DNA from: Pyxidicoccus sp. MSG2
GTDB taxonomy: Bacteria; Myxococcota; Myxococcia; Myxococcales; Myxococcaceae
NCBI RefSeq assembly: GCF_026626705.1
Contig: NZ_JAPNKC010000001.1
Span: 1,426,001-1,490,000, forward strand
Length of the DNA stretch: 64,000 bases
Reading direction: 5' to 3'
The number at the start of each line of letters is the position of its first letter. Positions within the stretch are counted from its first letter, which is position 1. The translations under genes were made by a program, and so were the position numbers. The notes below the pieces were generated by a model, which did not search any database, was not told the DNA's origin, and worked only from the letters and a program-made list of their open reading frames with translations. Of the stretch, positions 1 through 7,553 are shown piece by piece.

Positions 1-489
1 GAGTACTCGCCGGACCTGGGCGCGGGCGGCCACCAGCGGGTGGTGCTGGAGGTGAAGCGCGAGCGGCACGGCCTGACGCAGAAGCGCCGGGTGTGGGTGC
101 CGCGCACGGACCTGGGGCGCGTGCTGCGCGGCGGTGCCGGCCTGCTGCCGCTCATCGCGGGAGGCAGCCTCGTGCCGGTACTGGCCGTCACGTACAAGCG
201 GCACGTGTACCAGGCCACGCAGGAGTGGCGGGTGACGGTGGACCGGGACATCGCCTTCCACACGATTTCGCCGGAGCTGGCGCTGTCGCAGCTGTCGCTG
301 ACGGCGGAGCGGTTGGGCCCACCCCAGTCGATGGACAATCGGGTGGTGGTGGAGGTGAAGCACCTCGGGTGTGAGTTGCCCGAGTGGCTGGCGTCGCTCA
401 ATCCGGGCGGAGCGCCGGCGTACAGCAAGTTCGCGGAAGGGATGGCGAGGGTCTACGCCTTCGCCACGGATGGGGTCGTAGGGGGATAG
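1..489 (+). CDS. VTC-domain protein (polyphosphate polymerase type), 5' truncated
   Basis: The frame is open from base 1, so the start lies outside the window; 162 residues remain. The fragment has the C-terminal half of a VTC domain: a Tyr-rich YKRHVYQ strand, then RVTVDRDI, a VVVEVKH strand and a late SKFAEGM motif. In the family these basic and acidic residues line the tunnel in which inorganic polyphosphate is made from nucleoside triphosphate, or bound. It is followed after 6 bp by the kinase-like gene and then by a DUF4956 membrane protein. VTC and DUF4956 often travel together in bacteria, frequently with CotH-type kinases, so the missing upstream gene may be of that type (inference). 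An internal GTG at 40 could be mistaken for the start, but the homology runs upstream of it. Confidence 0.75.
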   Translation, partial: EYSPDLGAGGHQRVVLEVKRERHGLTQKRRVWVPRTDLGRVLRGGAGLLPLIAGGSLVPVLAVTYKRHVYQATQEWRVTVDRDIAFHTISPELALSQLSLTAERLGPPQSMDNRVVVEVKHLGCELPEWLASLNPGGAPAYSKFAEGMARVYAFATDGVVGG

Positions 490-495
490 GGCACC

Positions 496-2205
496 GTGTT
501 CATCGACTTCGAGGGTATTGACGGCAGCGGGAAGACCACACTGTCCAACCTGCTGGCCGCGCGGCTCAAGAAACTGGGCTACCGGGTGGCGCATGCGCGG
601 GAAGGGGGCGAATTGCAGGCGCCCGCCGCGCGACGCGTACGGGAGCTGACGCGCGACTCACGGCTCCTGGAGATGTCTCCACGCACCGAGTTCTTCCTCA
701 ACCTGGCCAGGGATGCGCAGCAACTGGAAGAGGTGATTTCACCCGCGCTGCGCCGGGGTGAGGTGTGCATCACCGACCGCTACCTGTACTCGCAACTGGC
801 GCTGAGCGGCGGTGGGCGAGGGCTGCCCATGGCCGAGCTGAGGCCGGCGTGCGAGCTGGCATCGCAGGGCCTGTGGCCGGACCTGGTCATCCTGGTGGAC
901 GTGGACCCGGACCTGGCGCGCTGGCGCAAGCGCCTGGGCAAGGTGCAGAGCGCGCGCGTGTCGGACGGCGACAGCCGCAAGGGGCTGGCCGGCGCGGGCC
1001 TGGCGGTGCGGGTGCGCGAGTCCTTCCTGGAGATGGCGCGCAAGGATCCGCAGCGCTGGCTCATCCTGGAGAACAACGACGTGCCACTGCGCATGCTGGA
1101 ACAGCGGCTGGTGGACGCGGTGGTGGCGCGGCTGGAGGGGCGGGAGATGCCGGTGCAGCGCATCGTCCCCGCGCCGTCCGCCCTGCCCGCGGGCCCGACG
1201 ACGGTGGAGAACACGGAGGAGCGCTTCTTCCACGCGCTGGACTCGGTGGAGGTGCGCGAGCCGGCGCTGGCGGTGTGGATGGTGGGCGGCATGCCCGGAC
1301 TGCCCGCATACCAGCGGCGGCTGACCTACGCGGAGCGCTTCCCCGCGCTCACCGCGCGCGGCCTCGGCGGGCTGGACGACGAGCCGGCCTGGACGCTGCG
1401 CGAGGTGCTGGCGTCAGCGGCGCCCGCGGAGGTGGCCTCCAGCCTGGGCGGCCTGACGGGCGCGCGGGCGGCGATGTTGCGCGAGCGCCTGTATGCGCAG
1501 GCTCCGACGGAGGTGCTGTCCGGCCTCAAGCGGGACAGCTCGACCCAGGCGTGGGCCCTGCGCGAGCGCGGGATGAAGGACGGCCGGCTCCCGGACGTGC
1601 TCTCCGGGCTCTCCGGCGTGGACGGCGACGAGTCCTGGGTGGTGCGCGAGGCGGGCATGCAGCGCAAGCTGTACGCGGAAGTCGCGCGCAGCCTGGGCGG
1701 GCTCACCACGGCGCGCGCGGATGCGCTGCGCGAGGTGCTGTTGCCACATGACCGGCTGGCGGTGCTGCGCAGCACCAACGGCCTGGACACGCCGGTGGCG
1801 CGCGGCCTGCGCGAGGCGCTGGCGGACAAGGCGCTGAAGCTGGTGCTGCGCTCGCTCACGGGCCTCACCACGAACGAGGCCTGGGCGCTGCGCGAGAAGG
1901 GCGCGCCGCTGACGAAGGAGGCGCTGGACTCGGTGGACGGCCTGGACGACCCGCGCGCGTGGAAGCTGCGCGTGGCGTACGCGAACCGCTGGTCCTCCAC
2001 GGTGCTGTCGTCGCTCAAGGGCCTGCCGCTCGGGCCACATGCCCGCACGCTCATCGACCGCGTGCTCGAGGCGAACCCCGCCCGGCTGCCAGTGCTGCGC
2101 AACGCGTACGCCGTCATCGCCACCGCGCGCGGCCTCGCCACCGCGCCCACGCGTGCGGCCCGCCCCGAGGCGGACGTCACGGCGCGTGCGGAAGTGCAGG
2201 GATAG
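496..2205 (+). CDS. Thymidylate-kinase-like protein fused to a ~28-residue repeat array
   Basis: 569 residues, GTG start 6 bp after the VTC gene. Residues 1-210 form a P-loop kinase of the dTMP kinase family: Walker A GIDGSGKT at 7-14, the DRY motif at 94-96 and a basic lid around 143-167. The usual EPGG motif is altered to REGG, so the substrate may not be dTMP. Family dTMP kinases are about 205-215 residues. Here another 350 follow, of which roughly 245-540 are nine or ten imperfect repeats of 26-29 residues built on the pattern L-SLxGL-(6)-A-x-x-LRE. The repeats look helical and may be a protein-interaction solenoid. Its position between a VTC protein and a DUF4956 protein suggests a role with phosphate polymers or the envelope rather than the housekeeping tmk (inference). 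Confidence 0.7.
   Translation: MFIDFEGIDGSGKTTLSNLLAARLKKLGYRVAHAREGGELQAPAARRVRELTRDSRLLEMSPRTEFFLNLARDAQQLEEVISPALRRGEVCITDRYLYSQLALSGGGRGLPMAELRPACELASQGLWPDLVILVDVDPDLARWRKRLGKVQSARVSDGDSRKGLAGAGLAVRVRESFLEMARKDPQRWLILENNDVPLRMLEQRLVDAVVARLEGREMPVQRIVPAPSALPAGPTTVENTEERFFHALDSVEVREPALAVWMVGGMPGLPAYQRRLTYAERFPALTARGLGGLDDEPAWTLREVLASAAPAEVASSLGGLTGARAAMLRERLYAQAPTEVLSGLKRDSSTQAWALRERGMKDGRLPDVLSGLSGVDGDESWVVREAGMQRKLYAEVARSLGGLTTARADALREVLLPHDRLAVLRSTNGLDTPVARGLREALADKALKLVLRSLTGLTTNEAWALREKGAPLTKEALDSVDGLDDPRAWKLRVAYANRWSSTVLSSLKGLPLGPHARTLIDRVLEANPARLPVLRNAYAVIATARGLATAPTRAARPEADVTARAEVQG
1228..2115 (+). repeat. Coding tandem repeats, ~28 codons each
   Basis: This stretch encodes the repeat array of the kinase-like protein. 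Units share the words SLGGL, SGLSG, SLTGL or SVDGL, followed 6-9 residues later by A-W/D-x-LRE. Units have diverged at the DNA level, so the array is old rather than a fresh expansion. Confidence 0.7.
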
Positions 2206-2211
2206 CGGCCC

Positions 2212-2913
2212 ATGGACCCGTTCTCGTCGTTGCTCGAAGGCGCGAAGTCGGAGCTGGGGTCGATACACGCGGGGGCCATGTTCCCCCGCATGCTGGCGGC
2301 GACGCTCATCGGCGCGCTGCTGTCGCTGCGGCCCTGGCGGCTCTTGATGAAGCGCTCGCTGCCGAAGGCGGAGATGATTCAGGCGCAGGTGCTGCTGTGC
2401 GCCGCGGCGGCGGTGATTACCGCCGTCATCGGAGACAGCGTGGCCAAGGCCTTCGGCCTCGTGGGCCTGGGCGGCTTCGTGCGCTTCCGCTCGGGGCTGA
2501 AGGACCCGCGCGACGCGGCCATCCTCTTCCTGATGATTGGCCTGGGCATGGCGTGCGGCCACGGCAGCCTGGGGCTGGCGGGCATGGGCACCCTGTTCGT
2601 GGCGGGGCTGCTGTGGGTGCTCGACCTGTTCAACCGCGAGGAGAAGAGCGCGCCGAAGCAGCGGCTGATGCTGTCCGCGCAGGCGGATGACCTGGTGGGC
2701 GCGGAGGCCACGCTGCGGCGGGCGCTGGGCGAGCGGAACGTGCTGGTGAAGAGCTGCGCGCTCGACTTCGACGCGCGGCGCGTGGAGCTGGAAGTGGAGG
2801 AGCCGGAGCCGGGCTCCCTCGCGGCGGCGATGGGCCGCACCGAGGGGACGCCGTTGAGGGGGCTGCGGTGGACGGCGGTGAGCCCGAAAGGGGCACGGGA
2901 GGACATGGTATGA
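2212..2913 (+). CDS. DUF4956 family membrane protein
   Basis: 233 residues, ATG start 6 bp after the kinase-like gene. The N-terminal 140 residues hold about four hydrophobic segments (near 25-45, 60-85, 100-118 and 120-140) with the motif GLGGFVRFRSGLKDPRD between them, typical of DUF4956. The soluble C-terminal part (about 150-233) alternates short strands and helices, like the small ACT-like tail seen in this family and in MgtC relatives. Its role is unknown. Co-occurrence with VTC-domain proteins is a recognised pattern for the family. The stop overlaps the next start (ATGA), so the following lipoprotein is probably co-translated. Confidence 0.8.
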   Translation: MDPFSSLLEGAKSELGSIHAGAMFPRMLAATLIGALLSLRPWRLLMKRSLPKAEMIQAQVLLCAAAAVITAVIGDSVAKAFGLVGLGGFVRFRSGLKDPRDAAILFLMIGLGMACGHGSLGLAGMGTLFVAGLLWVLDLFNREEKSAPKQRLMLSAQADDLVGAEATLRRALGERNVLVKSCALDFDARRVELEVEEPEPGSLAAAMGRTEGTPLRGLRWTAVSPKGAREDMV

Positions 2914-3719
2914 CGCGCAGGTGGATGGCCGCGCTCGCGGCGGGCTGGGTGCTGGTGGCGTGTGGTGGCGGGAGCAGCCTGCCTCCGGGACCGGGGGACG
3001 ACTCGCAGAATCCCCCCATCGGCAACCCGGACGGCAGCATCGACCTGCCCGGTGACGTGGTGAACCCGGACGACAACAACCCGGACGAAACGCCCGCGGA
3101 GTCGACCTCGCTGTGGCCCCTGACGACGGGCTCCACGTGGGTCTACGACATCAAGGACCCCGTGCAGGGCGAGTTCAAGAAGACGGTGACGGTGCTGGGC
3201 CCGCGCGAGGTGCCGGACACCCAGGGCAAGATGACCGGGGTGCTGGTGCACAGCCGCCAGGACCGCACGCAGAACGGGATGGTCTACGAGGAGTACTCGT
3301 GGCAGCTCGAGCTGACCAACGGCCTGGTGGTGCGCCTGCGCGAGGAGGACCACAAGGACGGCGCGCAGATTCGCTCCACCGTCTGGTCTCCGGCCACGGT
3401 GAAGTCCGTCGCCCGCGCGCCCGAGTCCCTGCCCTGGTCCTACCAGAGCGCGGTGCAGGAGCAGACGGTGCTGGGCGACGGGACGAAGGAGGACAGCGAC
3501 CCGACGTACAACTGGCGCGTGGTGGAGAAGGGCCTGACGCTGCAGACGAAGGCGGGCACCTTCACCAACGTCATCAAGGTCCAGCGCGACAAGCTCAACG
3601 ACGCGGGCGAGGTGAAGGAGGGCAAGGAGCGCACGTACTGGCTCGCGCCCGGCGTGGGCAAGATTCGTGAGGAAGGCGAGCGCACCGAGGAGCTCGTCTC
3701 CTACGACGTGAAGAAGTAA
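2910..3719 (+). CDS. Lipoprotein of unknown function
   Basis: 269 residues from the ATG at 2910, which overlaps the stop of the DUF4956 gene. An upstream in-frame start at 2868 would bury the signal peptide, so the later start is chosen. Residues 1-22 form a signal peptide with lipobox LVAC and Cys22. A Gly/Pro/Asp/Asn-rich linker (about 25-65) leads to a beta-rich domain beginning LWPLTTGSTWVY and ending with VGKIREEGERTEELVSY. This resembles the generic bacterial extracytoplasmic domain that opens with a PLxxGxxW(V/T)Y strand. No enzyme motif is seen. Being last in the VTC operon, it may be the outer-membrane partner of that system (inference). Confidence 0.75.
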   Translation: MTRRWMAALAAGWVLVACGGGSSLPPGPGDDSQNPPIGNPDGSIDLPGDVVNPDDNNPDETPAESTSLWPLTTGSTWVYDIKDPVQGEFKKTVTVLGPREVPDTQGKMTGVLVHSRQDRTQNGMVYEEYSWQLELTNGLVVRLREEDHKDGAQIRSTVWSPATVKSVARAPESLPWSYQSAVQEQTVLGDGTKEDSDPTYNWRVVEKGLTLQTKAGTFTNVIKVQRDKLNDAGEVKEGKERTYWLAPGVGKIREEGERTEELVSYDVKK

Positions 3720-3850: not shown

Positions 3851-5506
3851 ATGCACCGGACGTCCACATCCACCTTCGCGCCCCTGGTGGCGGCGCTGAT
3901 GCTCGTGACAGGCGTCGCCTGCGCGGGCGTGCTGCCTCGCGACCCGTTCCTCCAGAAGGTGGGGCCGGACACCGCCACGGTGGCGTTCCGCCTCGCGGCC
4001 GACTGCTCGCCCACCGTGCGCTACGGCGTGGGGACGGCCGACCAGACGGTCGCCTCCGTGGACAAGGGGCGCATCCACGCGGTGGTGCTGACGGGGCTGA
4101 AGCCCGCCACCGAGTACACCTACGTGGTGGACGCCTGCGGCAAGACGACGCCGGCGAAGCACTTCCGCACCGCGCCCGTGCCCGGCACCCGCAACGTGCA
4201 CTTCACCGCGGTGGGTGACTTCGGCACCGGCGGCACGGACCAGAAGCTGGTGGCCACGGCCATGCTCAAGATGAAGCCGGAGCTGTTCGTGGCGCTGGGC
4301 GACAACGCCTACTCGTCCGGTACCGAGTCCGAAATCCAGAACAACCTCTTCACGCCGATGGCGGACCTGCTCGCCGAGGTGCCCCTCTTCGCGTCGCTGG
4401 GCAACCACGAGTACGTGACGAACCAGGGGCAGCCGTACCTGGACAACCTCTACCTGCCGTCCAACAACCCGGCGAACAGCGAGCGGTACTACTCGTTCGA
4501 CTGGGGCCACGTGCACTTCGTGGCGCTCGACTCCAACTGCGCCATCGGCCTGGCGTCGGCGGACCGCTGCGCGCTGGCCGCGCAGAAGACGTGGCTGGAG
4601 AAGGACCTGGCCGCCACCACGCAGCCGTGGAAGGTCGTCTTCTTCCACCACCCGCCCTGGTCCAGCGGCGAGCACGGCTCGCAGCTCGCCATGCGCCGCA
4701 ACTTCGCGCCCATCTTCGAGAAGTACGGCGTGGACCTCGTCCTCACCGGGCATGACCACAACTACGAGCGCAGCAAGCCGATGCAGGGCGACGTCGTGGC
4801 GGCCGCGGGCAAGGGCATCCCCTACCTCGTGGTGGGCGGCGGCGGCGCGTCCCTGCGTCCCTTCGCCACGTCCCGGCCGGACTGGAGCCTCATCCGCGAC
4901 GACCAGGCCCACGGCTTCCTCGACGTGAATGTCGTCGACGGCACCCTCACCGCGAACCTCATCAAGACGGACGGCAAGGTGCTGGACAGCTTCACGCTGA
5001 AGAAGGACCTGCCCCCGCTGGAGCAGCCGCCCGCCGGCACGCTGACCGTCACGGTGGAGGGCGAGCGCGGCGTGGCCCCGCACCAGGCGCTCTTCCGCGC
5101 CACCCCACCTGTGGCGGGCGCGAAGGTGACGTGGGACTTCGGCGACGGCGGCACGGCCGAGGGCGAGTCGGTGACGCACACCTACGAGAAGGCCGGCCAG
5201 TACACGGTGACGGCCACGGCCACACAGGGCACGCAGCCGCTGACGGCCACCGCCGTGGTGCAGGTGACGGCCGCCCCGGGGGACCCGGGTGAGACGCCCG
5301 CGGACCCGGAGCCGACGGACCCCGGCACGGACACGCCGGAGGAGGGCCGCCCGGGCCTGCCTGCGAACCCGCCGGACACCACGGACGCGACGAATGCCGG
5401 CACGGGTTCCGGGGGTGGCGGTTGCGCCGCGAGCCCCACGGCGACCCTGCTTCCCGCCCTGGGCCTGTTGGTGGCCGGGCTGGCCCGCCGTCGTCGCCGC
5501 AAGTAG
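3851..5506 (+). CDS. Secreted calcineurin-like metallophosphatase with PKD domain and MYXO-CTERM tail
   Basis: 551 residues. A signal peptide (about 1-25) precedes a fibronectin-like purple acid phosphatase N-terminal domain (30-110). A metallophosphoesterase domain follows (115-380) with the metal ligands VGDFG, GDNAY, GNHEY, the HHPPW strand and GHDHNYER, so the active site looks complete. A PKD domain (about 395-475, WDFGDGG) and a Pro/Asp/Thr-rich linker lead to the C-terminus. That tail has Gly-Gly-Cys, a hydrophobic helix and RRRRRK, which is the MYXO-CTERM sorting signal. The protein is therefore probably exported and held at the cell surface through its tail Cys. Likely activity is phosphomonoester or diester hydrolysis; the natural substrate is unknown. 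A hairpin terminator follows. Confidence 0.88.
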   Translation: MHRTSTSTFAPLVAALMLVTGVACAGVLPRDPFLQKVGPDTATVAFRLAADCSPTVRYGVGTADQTVASVDKGRIHAVVLTGLKPATEYTYVVDACGKTTPAKHFRTAPVPGTRNVHFTAVGDFGTGGTDQKLVATAMLKMKPELFVALGDNAYSSGTESEIQNNLFTPMADLLAEVPLFASLGNHEYVTNQGQPYLDNLYLPSNNPANSERYYSFDWGHVHFVALDSNCAIGLASADRCALAAQKTWLEKDLAATTQPWKVVFFHHPPWSSGEHGSQLAMRRNFAPIFEKYGVDLVLTGHDHNYERSKPMQGDVVAAAGKGIPYLVVGGGGASLRPFATSRPDWSLIRDDQAHGFLDVNVVDGTLTANLIKTDGKVLDSFTLKKDLPPLEQPPAGTLTVTVEGERGVAPHQALFRATPPVAGAKVTWDFGDGGTAEGESVTHTYEKAGQYTVTATATQGTQPLTATAVVQVTAAPGDPGETPADPEPTDPGTDTPEEGRPGLPANPPDTTDATNAGTGSGGGGCAASPTATLLPALGLLVAGLARRRRRK

Positions 5507-5548: not shown

Positions 5549-5699
5549 CTCCACTCCCCTCTGAAACGAGGGGTTCCGCGCCCCTCCGGGGAGACGGCGG
5601 CCCGTCCGGGTGGACCGGTGGACTCGAGTCCATCGGACACCCGGTTTTGCTTTCCGGGCTTGTCAACCCGGCCTGGGGAATGCAAAGGCCCATTCCGCC

Positions 5700-7553
5700 A
5701 TGGCAATCAAACGCAAGTCCCGCCCGGTCTCCCGGCCGGCCCCGAAGAAGTTCTCCGCCGAAGGGTCCGGGAAGAAGCCCGTGTCCACCGAGCGCCCCAG
5801 GCGCTCCGAAGACGCGCGCCGCACCGAGCGCCCGGAGCGTTCCGAGCGCCCCCCACGCAGCGAGCGGTCCGAGCGTCCGCGCAACGCCGAGCGCCCGCGC
5901 AACGCCGAGCGATCCGAGCGATCCGAGCGCCCGGAGCGCTCCGAGCGACCGCGCCGCACCGAGGGTTCCGAGCGACCGCGCCGCACCGAGGGTTCCGAGC
6001 GTCCGCGTGACACCGAGCGCCCGCGCCGCGCCGAGCAGTCGCGTGGCACCGAGCCGCACGAGCGCTCCGAGCGCCCGGGCCGCTCCGACCGTGGCGAGGG
6101 CCCGGGCCGCTCCGAGCGCGCCTGGCGTTCGGACGGCACCGGCCGCTTCGGCCACTCCAAGCGCGCCGACCGTGGCGAGCGCCCGGAGCGCGTCTCCCCC
6201 GCCGAGCGCGCCCGGAACCCCGAGCGCTACGAGCGCCCCGTGCGCGAGGACCTCGTCCTCCAGGCGTGCCTCGAGGCCTACGGCGCCGTCCGTCACGAGG
6301 GCCGCCTGTCCGACCGCGCCCTCGACTTCGTCCTGCGCCACAAGAAGAACCTCTACTCCAACGAGCGCCGCGCCGTGGCCGAACGCGTCTACGGACTGCT
6401 GCGTCGCCAGCGCACGGTGGACTTCCTCCTGTCCCGCGCGCACACGCGCTTCGACGCGCTCGACAAGACGCGCCAGGACGTACTGCGTCTGGCGACTTCG
6501 CGCGTGCTCTACGGCGAGCCGCTCGACACCGTGGTGCGCACCAGCTCCCTGGGCCCCGTGGACGCCGCGGCGCTCGGCTCGCTGCCAGAAGCCGCCGCCG
6601 TGCTGGAGGCCCTGCCGGAGCGCGAGCGCTTCCCCATCGCCGCCTCGCTGCCGGACTTCCTCGCGGACCTCTTCCGCAAGCAGTTCGGCCGTGACGCCGC
6701 CCGCGCCGCCGAGGCGATGAACGAGCGCGCCCCCCTCACCGGCCGCGCCAACCTCCTCAAGGACGACCGCGACGCGCTCGCCAGGCGCCTCAAGGCCGAG
6801 GGCGTGGACACCAGCCCCACCCCGCTGTCGCCCATGGGCCTGCACCTGGAGTCGCGCCTCAACGTCTTCGCCCTGGAGAGCTTCCGCGAGGGCTTCCTGG
6901 AGCTGCAGGACGAGGGCAGCCAGCTGCTCGGCATGCTGGTGGACGCACCGCCCACGCGCGTGGTGGACGCGTGCGCGGGCGCCGGCGGCAAGACGCTTCA
7001 GCTCGCCGCGCAGATGAAGAACCGCGGAGATTTGCACGCGCTGGACGTGGACGAGCGCCGCATGGAGGACCTCAAGAAGCGCGCGCGCCGCGCCGGGGTG
7101 CACAACGTGCGCGCCCAGCTCATCCCCCACGAGGGCCCGGAGGCGGACGCCGCCCTGGAGCCACTCAAGGGCAAGGCGGACCGCGTGCTCGTGGACGCGC
7201 CGTGCAGCGGCACCGGCACCTTCCGCCGCAAGCCGGACGCGCGCTACCGCCTCACGCCCGAGGACCTGGAGATGCACGTGGGCCGGCAGAAGGCGCTGCT
7301 CGCGCGCTTCGCCCTGCTGGTGAAGCCGGGCGGCCGCCTCATCTACGGCACGTGCAGCGTGCTCCACGCGGAGAACGAGGGCGTCATCGAGGACTTCCTG
7401 TCCAAGCACCCCGACTTCACCGTGCGCCCGGTGGCGGAGCTGCTGGGCCCGGAGCTGGGACCGAAGGTGGGCCCCGGTCCCTACCTGCGGCTGGCGCCAC
7501 ACACGCACGGCACGGACGGCTTCTTCGGCGCCGTGCTCGTCCGCGCGAAGTAG
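5700..7553 (+). CDS. RsmB/NOP family RNA (cytosine-C5) methyltransferase with repetitive N-terminal tail
   Basis: 617 residues from ATG 5700 (MAIKRKSRPVS). An in-frame GTG at 5610 would add non-conserved sequence. Residues about 27-180 are a low-complexity tail of Ser-Glu-Arg-Pro units. A NusB-like helical region (180-290) and the Rossmann methyltransferase domain (370-617) follow. The latter carries the SAM loop DACAGAGGKT, motif IV DAPCSGTG with one catalytic Cys, and motif VI GTCSV with the other, so the two-cysteine mechanism is intact. It probably methylates cytosine C5 in rRNA or tRNA. The tail is unusual for the family, whose members normally start at the NusB-like part, and may bind RNA or ribosomal protein. 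Confidence 0.88.
   Translation: MAIKRKSRPVSRPAPKKFSAEGSGKKPVSTERPRRSEDARRTERPERSERPPRSERSERPRNAERPRNAERSERSERPERSERPRRTEGSERPRRTEGSERPRDTERPRRAEQSRGTEPHERSERPGRSDRGEGPGRSERAWRSDGTGRFGHSKRADRGERPERVSPAERARNPERYERPVREDLVLQACLEAYGAVRHEGRLSDRALDFVLRHKKNLYSNERRAVAERVYGLLRRQRTVDFLLSRAHTRFDALDKTRQDVLRLATSRVLYGEPLDTVVRTSSLGPVDAAALGSLPEAAAVLEALPERERFPIAASLPDFLADLFRKQFGRDAARAAEAMNERAPLTGRANLLKDDRDALARRLKAEGVDTSPTPLSPMGLHLESRLNVFALESFREGFLELQDEGSQLLGMLVDAPPTRVVDACAGAGGKTLQLAAQMKNRGDLHALDVDERRMEDLKKRARRAGVHNVRAQLIPHEGPEADAALEPLKGKADRVLVDAPCSGTGTFRRKPDARYRLTPEDLEMHVGRQKALLARFALLVKPGGRLIYGTCSVLHAENEGVIEDFLSKHPDFTVRPVAELLGPELGPKVGPGPYLRLAPHTHGTDGFFGAVLVRAK
5785..6245 (+). repeat. Low-complexity coding repeats (Ser-Glu-Arg-Pro type)
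   Basis: The DNA encoding the methyltransferase tail is made of 9-12 nt cycles of CCGAGCG and CGC words. A 27-bp unit starting GAGCGACCGC is perfectly duplicated head to tail at 5943-5969 and 5970-5996, a sign of recent slippage or unequal exchange. Confidence 0.85.

Follow-up and report, generated by a model that had tools for sequence, protein, structure and literature searches.

Genes at the locus

At the 5′ end of the window, that is, the whole 64,000-nucleotide stretch analysed here from the 13.3-Mb genome of Pyxidicoccus sp. MSG2, we identified four head-to-tail genes, which encode a VTC-domain protein, a thymidylate-kinase-like protein with a C-terminal repeat half, a DUF4956 protein and a lipoprotein. 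The genes are spaced by 6 and 6 bases and then overlap by 4 bases, and their coordinates agree with a sequence-only reading of this DNA, which had described the same unit (Table 1). The four genes stand, but the operon is larger than that reading had it, as a porin-like gene lies directly ahead of the VTC gene. Besides this gene, we found two features that the earlier account had lacked: another type of the operon, which includes CotH, and an acceptor pocket of the kinase that is changed. The VTC gene is truncated by the window edge; the whole gene encodes 237 aa and starts 225 bases upstream of the window (L005:7776-8489). By name, the close relatives of the locus belong to Pyxidicoccus, Myxococcus and Corallococcus.

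Table 1. Features of the operon and its downstream neighbour, in window positions unless a locus is named
Feature	Position	Strand	Basis or remark
Porin-like gene, 454 aa	L005:6393-7757		Outside window
VTC-domain protein, 3′ part	1..489	+	PF09359
Kinase-toroid protein, whole	496..2205	+	569 aa, GTG start
Kinase domain: thymidylate-kinase fold, altered acceptor side, long basic lid	496..1146	+	PF02223, model match, alignment columns
Repeat array of about eleven helix pairs, ~27 residues each; predicted toroid-like solenoid	1204..2109	+	AF2 model
DUF4956 membrane protein	2212..2913	+	233 aa; PF16316 and hydrophobic windows
Lipoprotein, DUF3108-like	2910..3719	+	269 aa; lipobox LVAC ending at Cys18
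Purple-acid-phosphatase-like metallophosphoesterase, exported, MYXO-CTERM-type tail	3851..5506	+	PF00149, PF16656, TIGR03382

The VTC domain (PF09359) was matched with 56 bits by the whole gene and with 41.8 bits by the part in the window (cut-off 23). While the single sequence retrieved nothing from the PDB at E up to 1, a profile of eight VTC sequences found Vtc4 as its best match (1.1e-10), followed by Vtc2 (1.3e-4) and Vtc3 (0.0025 or weaker). Residues R73, E92/K94, K103/R105, Y140/R142 and E193/K195 and the SKF motif were invariant in all eight aligned sequences, and they align with the tunnel residues of yeast Vtc4. The protein carries a Glu at E15, as tripolyphosphatases do, whereas Vtc4 is reported, in the excerpt of the source used here, to be without it (PMC4641920); the mapping of E15 onto the Vtc4 column is our own reading of the alignment. 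As judged from these residues, polyphosphate polymerase activity is likely, but it is not certain because E15 is unlike Vtc4. No SPX domain was detected in the scanned operon proteins at E up to 1.

The DUF4956 protein matched PF16316 with 40 bits (cut-off 30.6) and MgtC weakly, with 19.9 bits (below the cut-off of 31.4). The lipoprotein of the window gave a weak DUF3108_like match (PF21347, 21.7 bits, cut-off 27), and its Enhygromyxa counterpart was above the same cut-off with 31.3 bits. The window's own porin-like gene had no Pfam match; Porin_O_P (PF07396, cut-off 20.9) was matched by the counterparts in the Enhygromyxa locus L062 (27.3 bits) and in L040 (23.9 bits), which shares its genus with the named Anaeromyxobacter locus, and by the second copy just under the cut-off (20.7 bits). 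The phosphatase downstream of the lipoprotein gene matched PF00149 with 63.3 bits, PF16656 with 32.7 bits and TIGR03382 with 17.8 bits (cut-off 15.85). A purple-acid-phosphatase-like gene was found near 16 of the 27 loci examined, or in 14 of 23 distinct places, since four places are represented by two loci each, two of these places belonging to the 16. In Myxococcaceae the gene follows the operon on the same strand, whereas in Anaeromyxobacter-type loci it lies upstream in divergent orientation; the second-copy loci examined had no such neighbour. We describe the phosphatase as a linked neighbour, whose membership in the operon is uncertain. The suggestion of an envelope system handling phosphate compounds, made in the sequence-only reading, gains support of context from the porin-O/P-like gene, the lipoprotein, the acid-phosphatase-like neighbour and, in the second copy, CotH.

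The kinase and repeat domains

The kinase matched Thymidylate_kin (PF02223) with 90 bits (cut-off 27) and the dTMP-kinase equivalog TIGR00041 with 99.6 bits, above its cut-off of 83.25. The full-length model (569 aa) had a pLDDT of 89.6, and the model of the kinase domain superimposed on 4edh with a Z of 26.3 and 1.9 Å over 203 residues. The genome encodes a separate canonical tmk with 146.2 bits, compared with 91.6 bits for the repeat kinase (TMK profile E 3.2e-25 in its own genome), which bears out the earlier proposal that the latter is not the housekeeping Tmk. Among the matches listed, 72 of the 75 genomes with a repeat kinase had a TMK match of E 1e-35 or better, the exceptions being G128, G150 and G038. 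With the canonical tmk present and the acceptor side changed, as described below, we rejected the identification as the housekeeping enzyme. Membership of PPK2 was also rejected, as none of the ten Pfam matches of the kinase at E up to 1 was to PPK2. A fourth TMK-family match of the genome (L008) looks, on our reading of its sequence, like a deoxynucleoside kinase.

We compared alignment columns between canonical TMKs and repeat kinases, 22 of each. The canonical enzymes were that of T. thermophilus and 21 found in the relatives searched; many of the repeat kinases are closely related and thus not independent. Among the columns inspected, 12 were invariant in the canonical set. The repeat kinases kept the Asp of the P-loop and the Asp and Arg of the DR motif in 22/22 and had the P-loop Lys in 22/22, and they kept in part the Tyr of DRY (14/22), a Ser (16/22) and an Ala (16/22). 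Six columns were present in 22/22 canonical TMKs and in 0/22 repeat kinases, namely the Pro of REPGG, the Phe of LLF, the Asp and Arg of ADR, and the Tyr and Gln of AYQ; we take these to be the thymidine-side (acceptor) contacts of TMK. The REGG motif that the sequence-only reading had noted in place of REPGG is thus confirmed, and the loss of its proline is common to all repeat kinases compared. At the ADR column the repeat kinases read Arg and then Asp/Glu; rather than a swap, this may reflect an R-x-x-Q/H helix motif that is retained but displaced by one residue. The lid of the repeat kinases was also longer than that of the canonical TMKs (29.7 versus 21.0 residues) and far more basic, with a net charge of +6.3 (range 4 to 10) versus +0.9 (range -2 to 4). 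As a separate observation, the P-loop of the canonical TMKs from these myxobacteria is mostly GAGTTT or similar; 18 of the 21 (L001 and 17 among L094-L113) have Thr where Lys is usual.

Thus, the repeat kinase resembles Tmk in fold, P-loop, DR motif and profile score, and differs from it in the acceptor-side columns, the lid, the fused repeats and the genomic context. The kept catalytic motifs suggest real phosphotransfer, the changed acceptor side suggests a substrate other than dTMP, and the lid suggests an anionic partner; a basic lid could also fit other anionic substrates. The protein is probably not a dTMP kinase despite passing the cut-off, and its automatic annotation as such is probably wrong, since six columns invariant in canonical TMKs are changed in spite of the curated threshold. 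Neither a lipobox nor a hydrophobic segment was found in the kinase, and we therefore expect it in the cytosol, next to DUF4956.

In the C-terminal half, we found eight LRE-type anchors spaced by 26-28 residues. Modelled alone with AF2, the repeat domain (302 aa) gave a pLDDT of 95.9 and 22 helices, or about eleven pairs, in line with the nine- or ten-fold array of ~28 residues described earlier. At the DNA level, a single repeat family was detected, with five copies of 66-72% identity. The repeat half had no Pfam or NCBIfam match and no relatives among PDB sequences, both at E up to 1, and a Foldseek search with the repeat model gave no match with an E-value of 0.001 or lower. In VIA-align, the top 31 rows were all proteasome entries, including those titled Rpn2 (4ady) and PSMD2 (7ujd); the remaining matched chains are presumably toroid chains of the Rpn1/Rpn2 type. 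The best toroid match aligned the whole domain with a Z of 14.1 and 4.7 Å over 300 residues at 11% identity, where helical repeats can reach a Z of about 13 by arrangement alone, and HEAT- and ARM-type chains ranked after the proteasome rows, with an rmsd mostly above 10 Å. The domain is thus predicted to be a toroid-like solenoid resembling the proteasome toroid, clearly favoured by VIA-align only; given the identity and the missing Pfam match of the repeat half, a relationship to Rpn2/Rpn1 is unproven. Of the 97 repeat-half matches described below, 96 lie in open frames of at least 468 residues; the frame of the remaining one, in G120, has 344 residues and lies where a contig begins. We thus saw no free-standing repeat domain.

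Conservation and a second operon type

The order porin-VTC-kinase-DUF4956-lipoprotein was kept in 30/30 best-matching loci, own locus included and mostly from one genus (in L013 a contig end cuts inside the lipoprotein gene); across this set, the gene order is more than chance. The sequence-only reading had named two findings that would refute it, a genome lacking a second, canonical tmk and a gene order that relatives do not share, and the data contradict both. Among 61 genomes searched, a full-length kinase was found in 27/27 of the same genus. In a sample of the phylum, a profile of the repeat half matched 75 of 195 genomes and 15 of 90 genera at 97 loci, which means that a second copy is present in 22 genomes. 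DUF4956 was present in 111 and VTC in 94 of the 195 genomes at E up to 0.01. DUF4956 lies on the same strand within 1.5 kb in 96/97 repeat-half loci, and VTC lies within 5 kb in 89/97.

Seven of the eight loci without a VTC profile match nearby (the eighth being that of G086) were looked into individually. In G024 and G046, tblastn located VTC nearby after all, despite no profile match; G029 and G120 have their repeat-kinase loci at contig ends, with no VTC profile match nearby; and in G019 and G144 VTC is on another contig than the repeat kinase. G038, the one exception for DUF4956 as well, is a 95% complete genome in which the repeat kinase stands by itself (L042:5562-7226) and neither VTC nor DUF4956 was matched (E up to 0.01), indicating that the kinase can exist without both. 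In a MAG (L063) with the genes VTC-kinase-DUF4956-lipoprotein, the kinase copy is broken across two frames (L063:9248-10960), possibly through an assembly error.

Beyond the phylum sample, a pattern scan identified 16 loci, 15 of them with myxobacterial titles and one titled Comamonas; as the scan rested on a single 10-residue pattern, the spread outside the sampled phylum is weakly tested. The locus titled Comamonas sp. KCTC 72670 (L051) carries a myxobacterial operon and flanks with 58-98% identity to the window genes, and its organism name looks wrong. Spread on plasmids was rejected, since none of the 63 matching plasmid records covered 80% of the kinase protein. A defence system was rejected, as PADLOC gave two matches that were weak, with 26 bits each, and confined to the kinase half; a phage link was rejected as well, with PHROGs matching this half alone.

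We examined 12 distinct second-copy loci out of the 22. Eleven of them begin with CotH, encoded on the same strand as the rest of the cluster; the set CotH-VTC-porin-kinase-DUF4956 is retained in 10, and the porin-like gene is retained with the kinase in 11. The CotH-VTC pair of L045 was found apart from it, at L114, and the genome of L116 has a separate VTC-porin pair at L115; the kinase stays adjacent to DUF4956 in the diverged second operon. As the set splits and the kinase still remains with DUF4956, we consider DUF4956 the closest partner of the kinase. In the Enhygromyxa locus L062, porin, kinase and lipoprotein genes lie opposite CotH (133.8 bits) and a DUF4956-like gene (23.9 bits, under the cut-off of 30.6) on the other strand, and tblastn found no VTC in this 20.8-kb locus. 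Beside the window operon and its first-type relatives, no CotH match was obtained with the queries used. A PPDK_N lipoprotein-like protein (83.7 bits) was observed at L007:859-2880 on the minus strand, and also in L044 and L059.

VTC-DUF4956 pairs without the repeat kinase were also found; there are 23 of them, with match starts within 0.9 kb in 21, and the repeat kinase is therefore not essential to the pair. All seven kinase-free loci looked at had one or more neighbours resembling CotH, the porin, the DUF3108 lipoprotein or the PPDK_N lipoprotein, in some cases by weak matches (39 to 72 bits in L127, L132 and L133). A Lys-type TMK P-loop was found in 0/7 of these loci in ORFs of at least 100 aa, a scan that a Thr-type P-loop would escape. 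Because kinase-free loci carry similar envelope-type neighbours, the kinase seems to have been added to a broader envelope system.

A possible phosphate-polymer module and its alternatives

We tentatively favour, with somewhat less than even confidence, the reading that the operon is an envelope-spanning module for synthesis and export of a phosphate polymer of the polyphosphate type, with a TMK-derived, toroid-bearing cytosolic subunit; we infer the polymer, its export and the kinase substrate from sequence. The kinase-toroid protein would sit at the inner face next to DUF4956, docked by its toroid, and the porin-O/P-like protein and the lipoprotein would form the outer part of the route. The TMK-derived domain, with its long basic lid, might add phosphate to, or take it from, a phosphate-rich compound or a nucleotide other than dTMP, thereby feeding, priming or gating the polymerase. 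We base this reading on the conserved order, the linkage of DUF4956 and VTC to the repeat half, the pairing kept by the second operon, the Vtc4-best VTC profile, the Porin_O_P matches of counterparts, and the columns and lid charge of the kinase. Against it stand the lone kinase of G038, the 23 kinase-free pairs, the window's porin-like gene without a Pfam match, the dTMP-kinase cut-off that was passed, the three TMK columns kept in 14-16/22, the possible ADR shift, E15, which is unlike Vtc4, and a basic lid that would fit other anions.

The TMK-derived domain might instead bind a nucleotide signal and the toroid switch VTC-DUF4956 on or off, with catalysis secondary, in analogy to the inositol-pyrophosphate input of yeast VTC. 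In the part of PMC9911596 used here, inositol pyrophosphate binding is described to activate yeast VTC and to orient the polymerase at the channel. The lack of an SPX match in the scanned operon proteins, the predicted scaffold-like toroid and DUF4956 beside the repeat kinase in nearly all loci fit such a gate, but all repeat kinases compared keep DR and the Asp and Lys of the P-loop, which suggests selection for catalysis, and we consider a sensor rather unlikely. It is similarly doubtful that the operon serves a secreted phosphorylation system, in which its parts would provide the phosphate donors for kinases outside the cytoplasm (CotH and an exported PPDK_N lipoprotein, for example), with polymer export incidental. 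CotH heads nearly all second-copy clusters examined, and the PPDK_N lipoprotein occurs in 2/12 of them (the window's genome and Pyxidicoccus caerfyrddinensis) and near 2/7 kinase-free loci (L129 and L131); yet it is missing from the other ten second-copy loci, and the window operon and its first-type relatives lack a CotH match with the queries used. A redundant but genuine dTMP kinase with a repeat tail, kept in the operon for gene dosage or by history, would explain the TIGR00041 score and the clear TMK fold. The canonical tmk in the genome, the six changed columns and the tight linkage to DUF4956 speak against it and make it very unlikely.

The module reading can be compared with known systems. 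With the eukaryotic VTC complex (Vtc4/Vtc3/Vtc1), the operon would share a tunnel polymerase domain with aligned Vtc4 residues, a membrane partner and, plausibly, cytosolic synthesis, which in yeast is coupled to translocation according to the excerpt of PMC9911596; it differs in that no SPX was found, that DUF4956 is the membrane partner, and that a kinase-toroid, a porin-like protein and a lipoprotein are added. Pel clusters of streptococci, clostridia and bifidobacteria are described to have accessory genes for CotH, a polyphosphate polymerase and DUF4956 (PMC7112168, in excerpt), side by side as in our second operon type. Thus, the pairing of a polyphosphate polymerase with DUF4956 is already known. 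The Pel set has DUF4832 or a diguanylate cyclase/phosphodiesterase instead, and the excerpt mentions neither a kinase-toroid nor a porin. In the open-licence PubMed Central literature, we found no description of the VTC domain and DUF4956 together, or with a thymidylate kinase. The kinase domain is also reminiscent of PPK2, which, according to the consulted portion of PMC8776046, is related to thymidylate kinases and has a lid as well as a channel with positive charge; it differs from PPK2 in having no match to that profile.

A bolder version of the module reading, which we regard as distinctly unlikely in its entirety, would make the operon a bacterial VTC counterpart across both membranes. 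In it, a TMK-derived kinase on a proteasome-like toroid would take the place of SPX, sense or consume nucleotides or use polyphosphate as donor or acceptor, and couple synthesis to export via DUF4956 and the outer-membrane porin; CotH and exported phosphatases would be the external users.

Soil myxobacteria possess a conserved set resembling a machine to make and move phosphate chains through the cell envelope, and as the myxobacterial version adds parts expected on both envelope sides, the route can be tested in a workable model bacterium.

Downstream of the phosphatase, the window contains an RsmB-like methyltransferase gene (5610-7553) with a repetitive Arg/Glu/Ser/Pro-rich N-terminal stretch at 5820-6000. 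An RsmB-like gene also lies 3′ of the operon in Myxococcus-type loci, and the lone kinase of G038 adjoins one.
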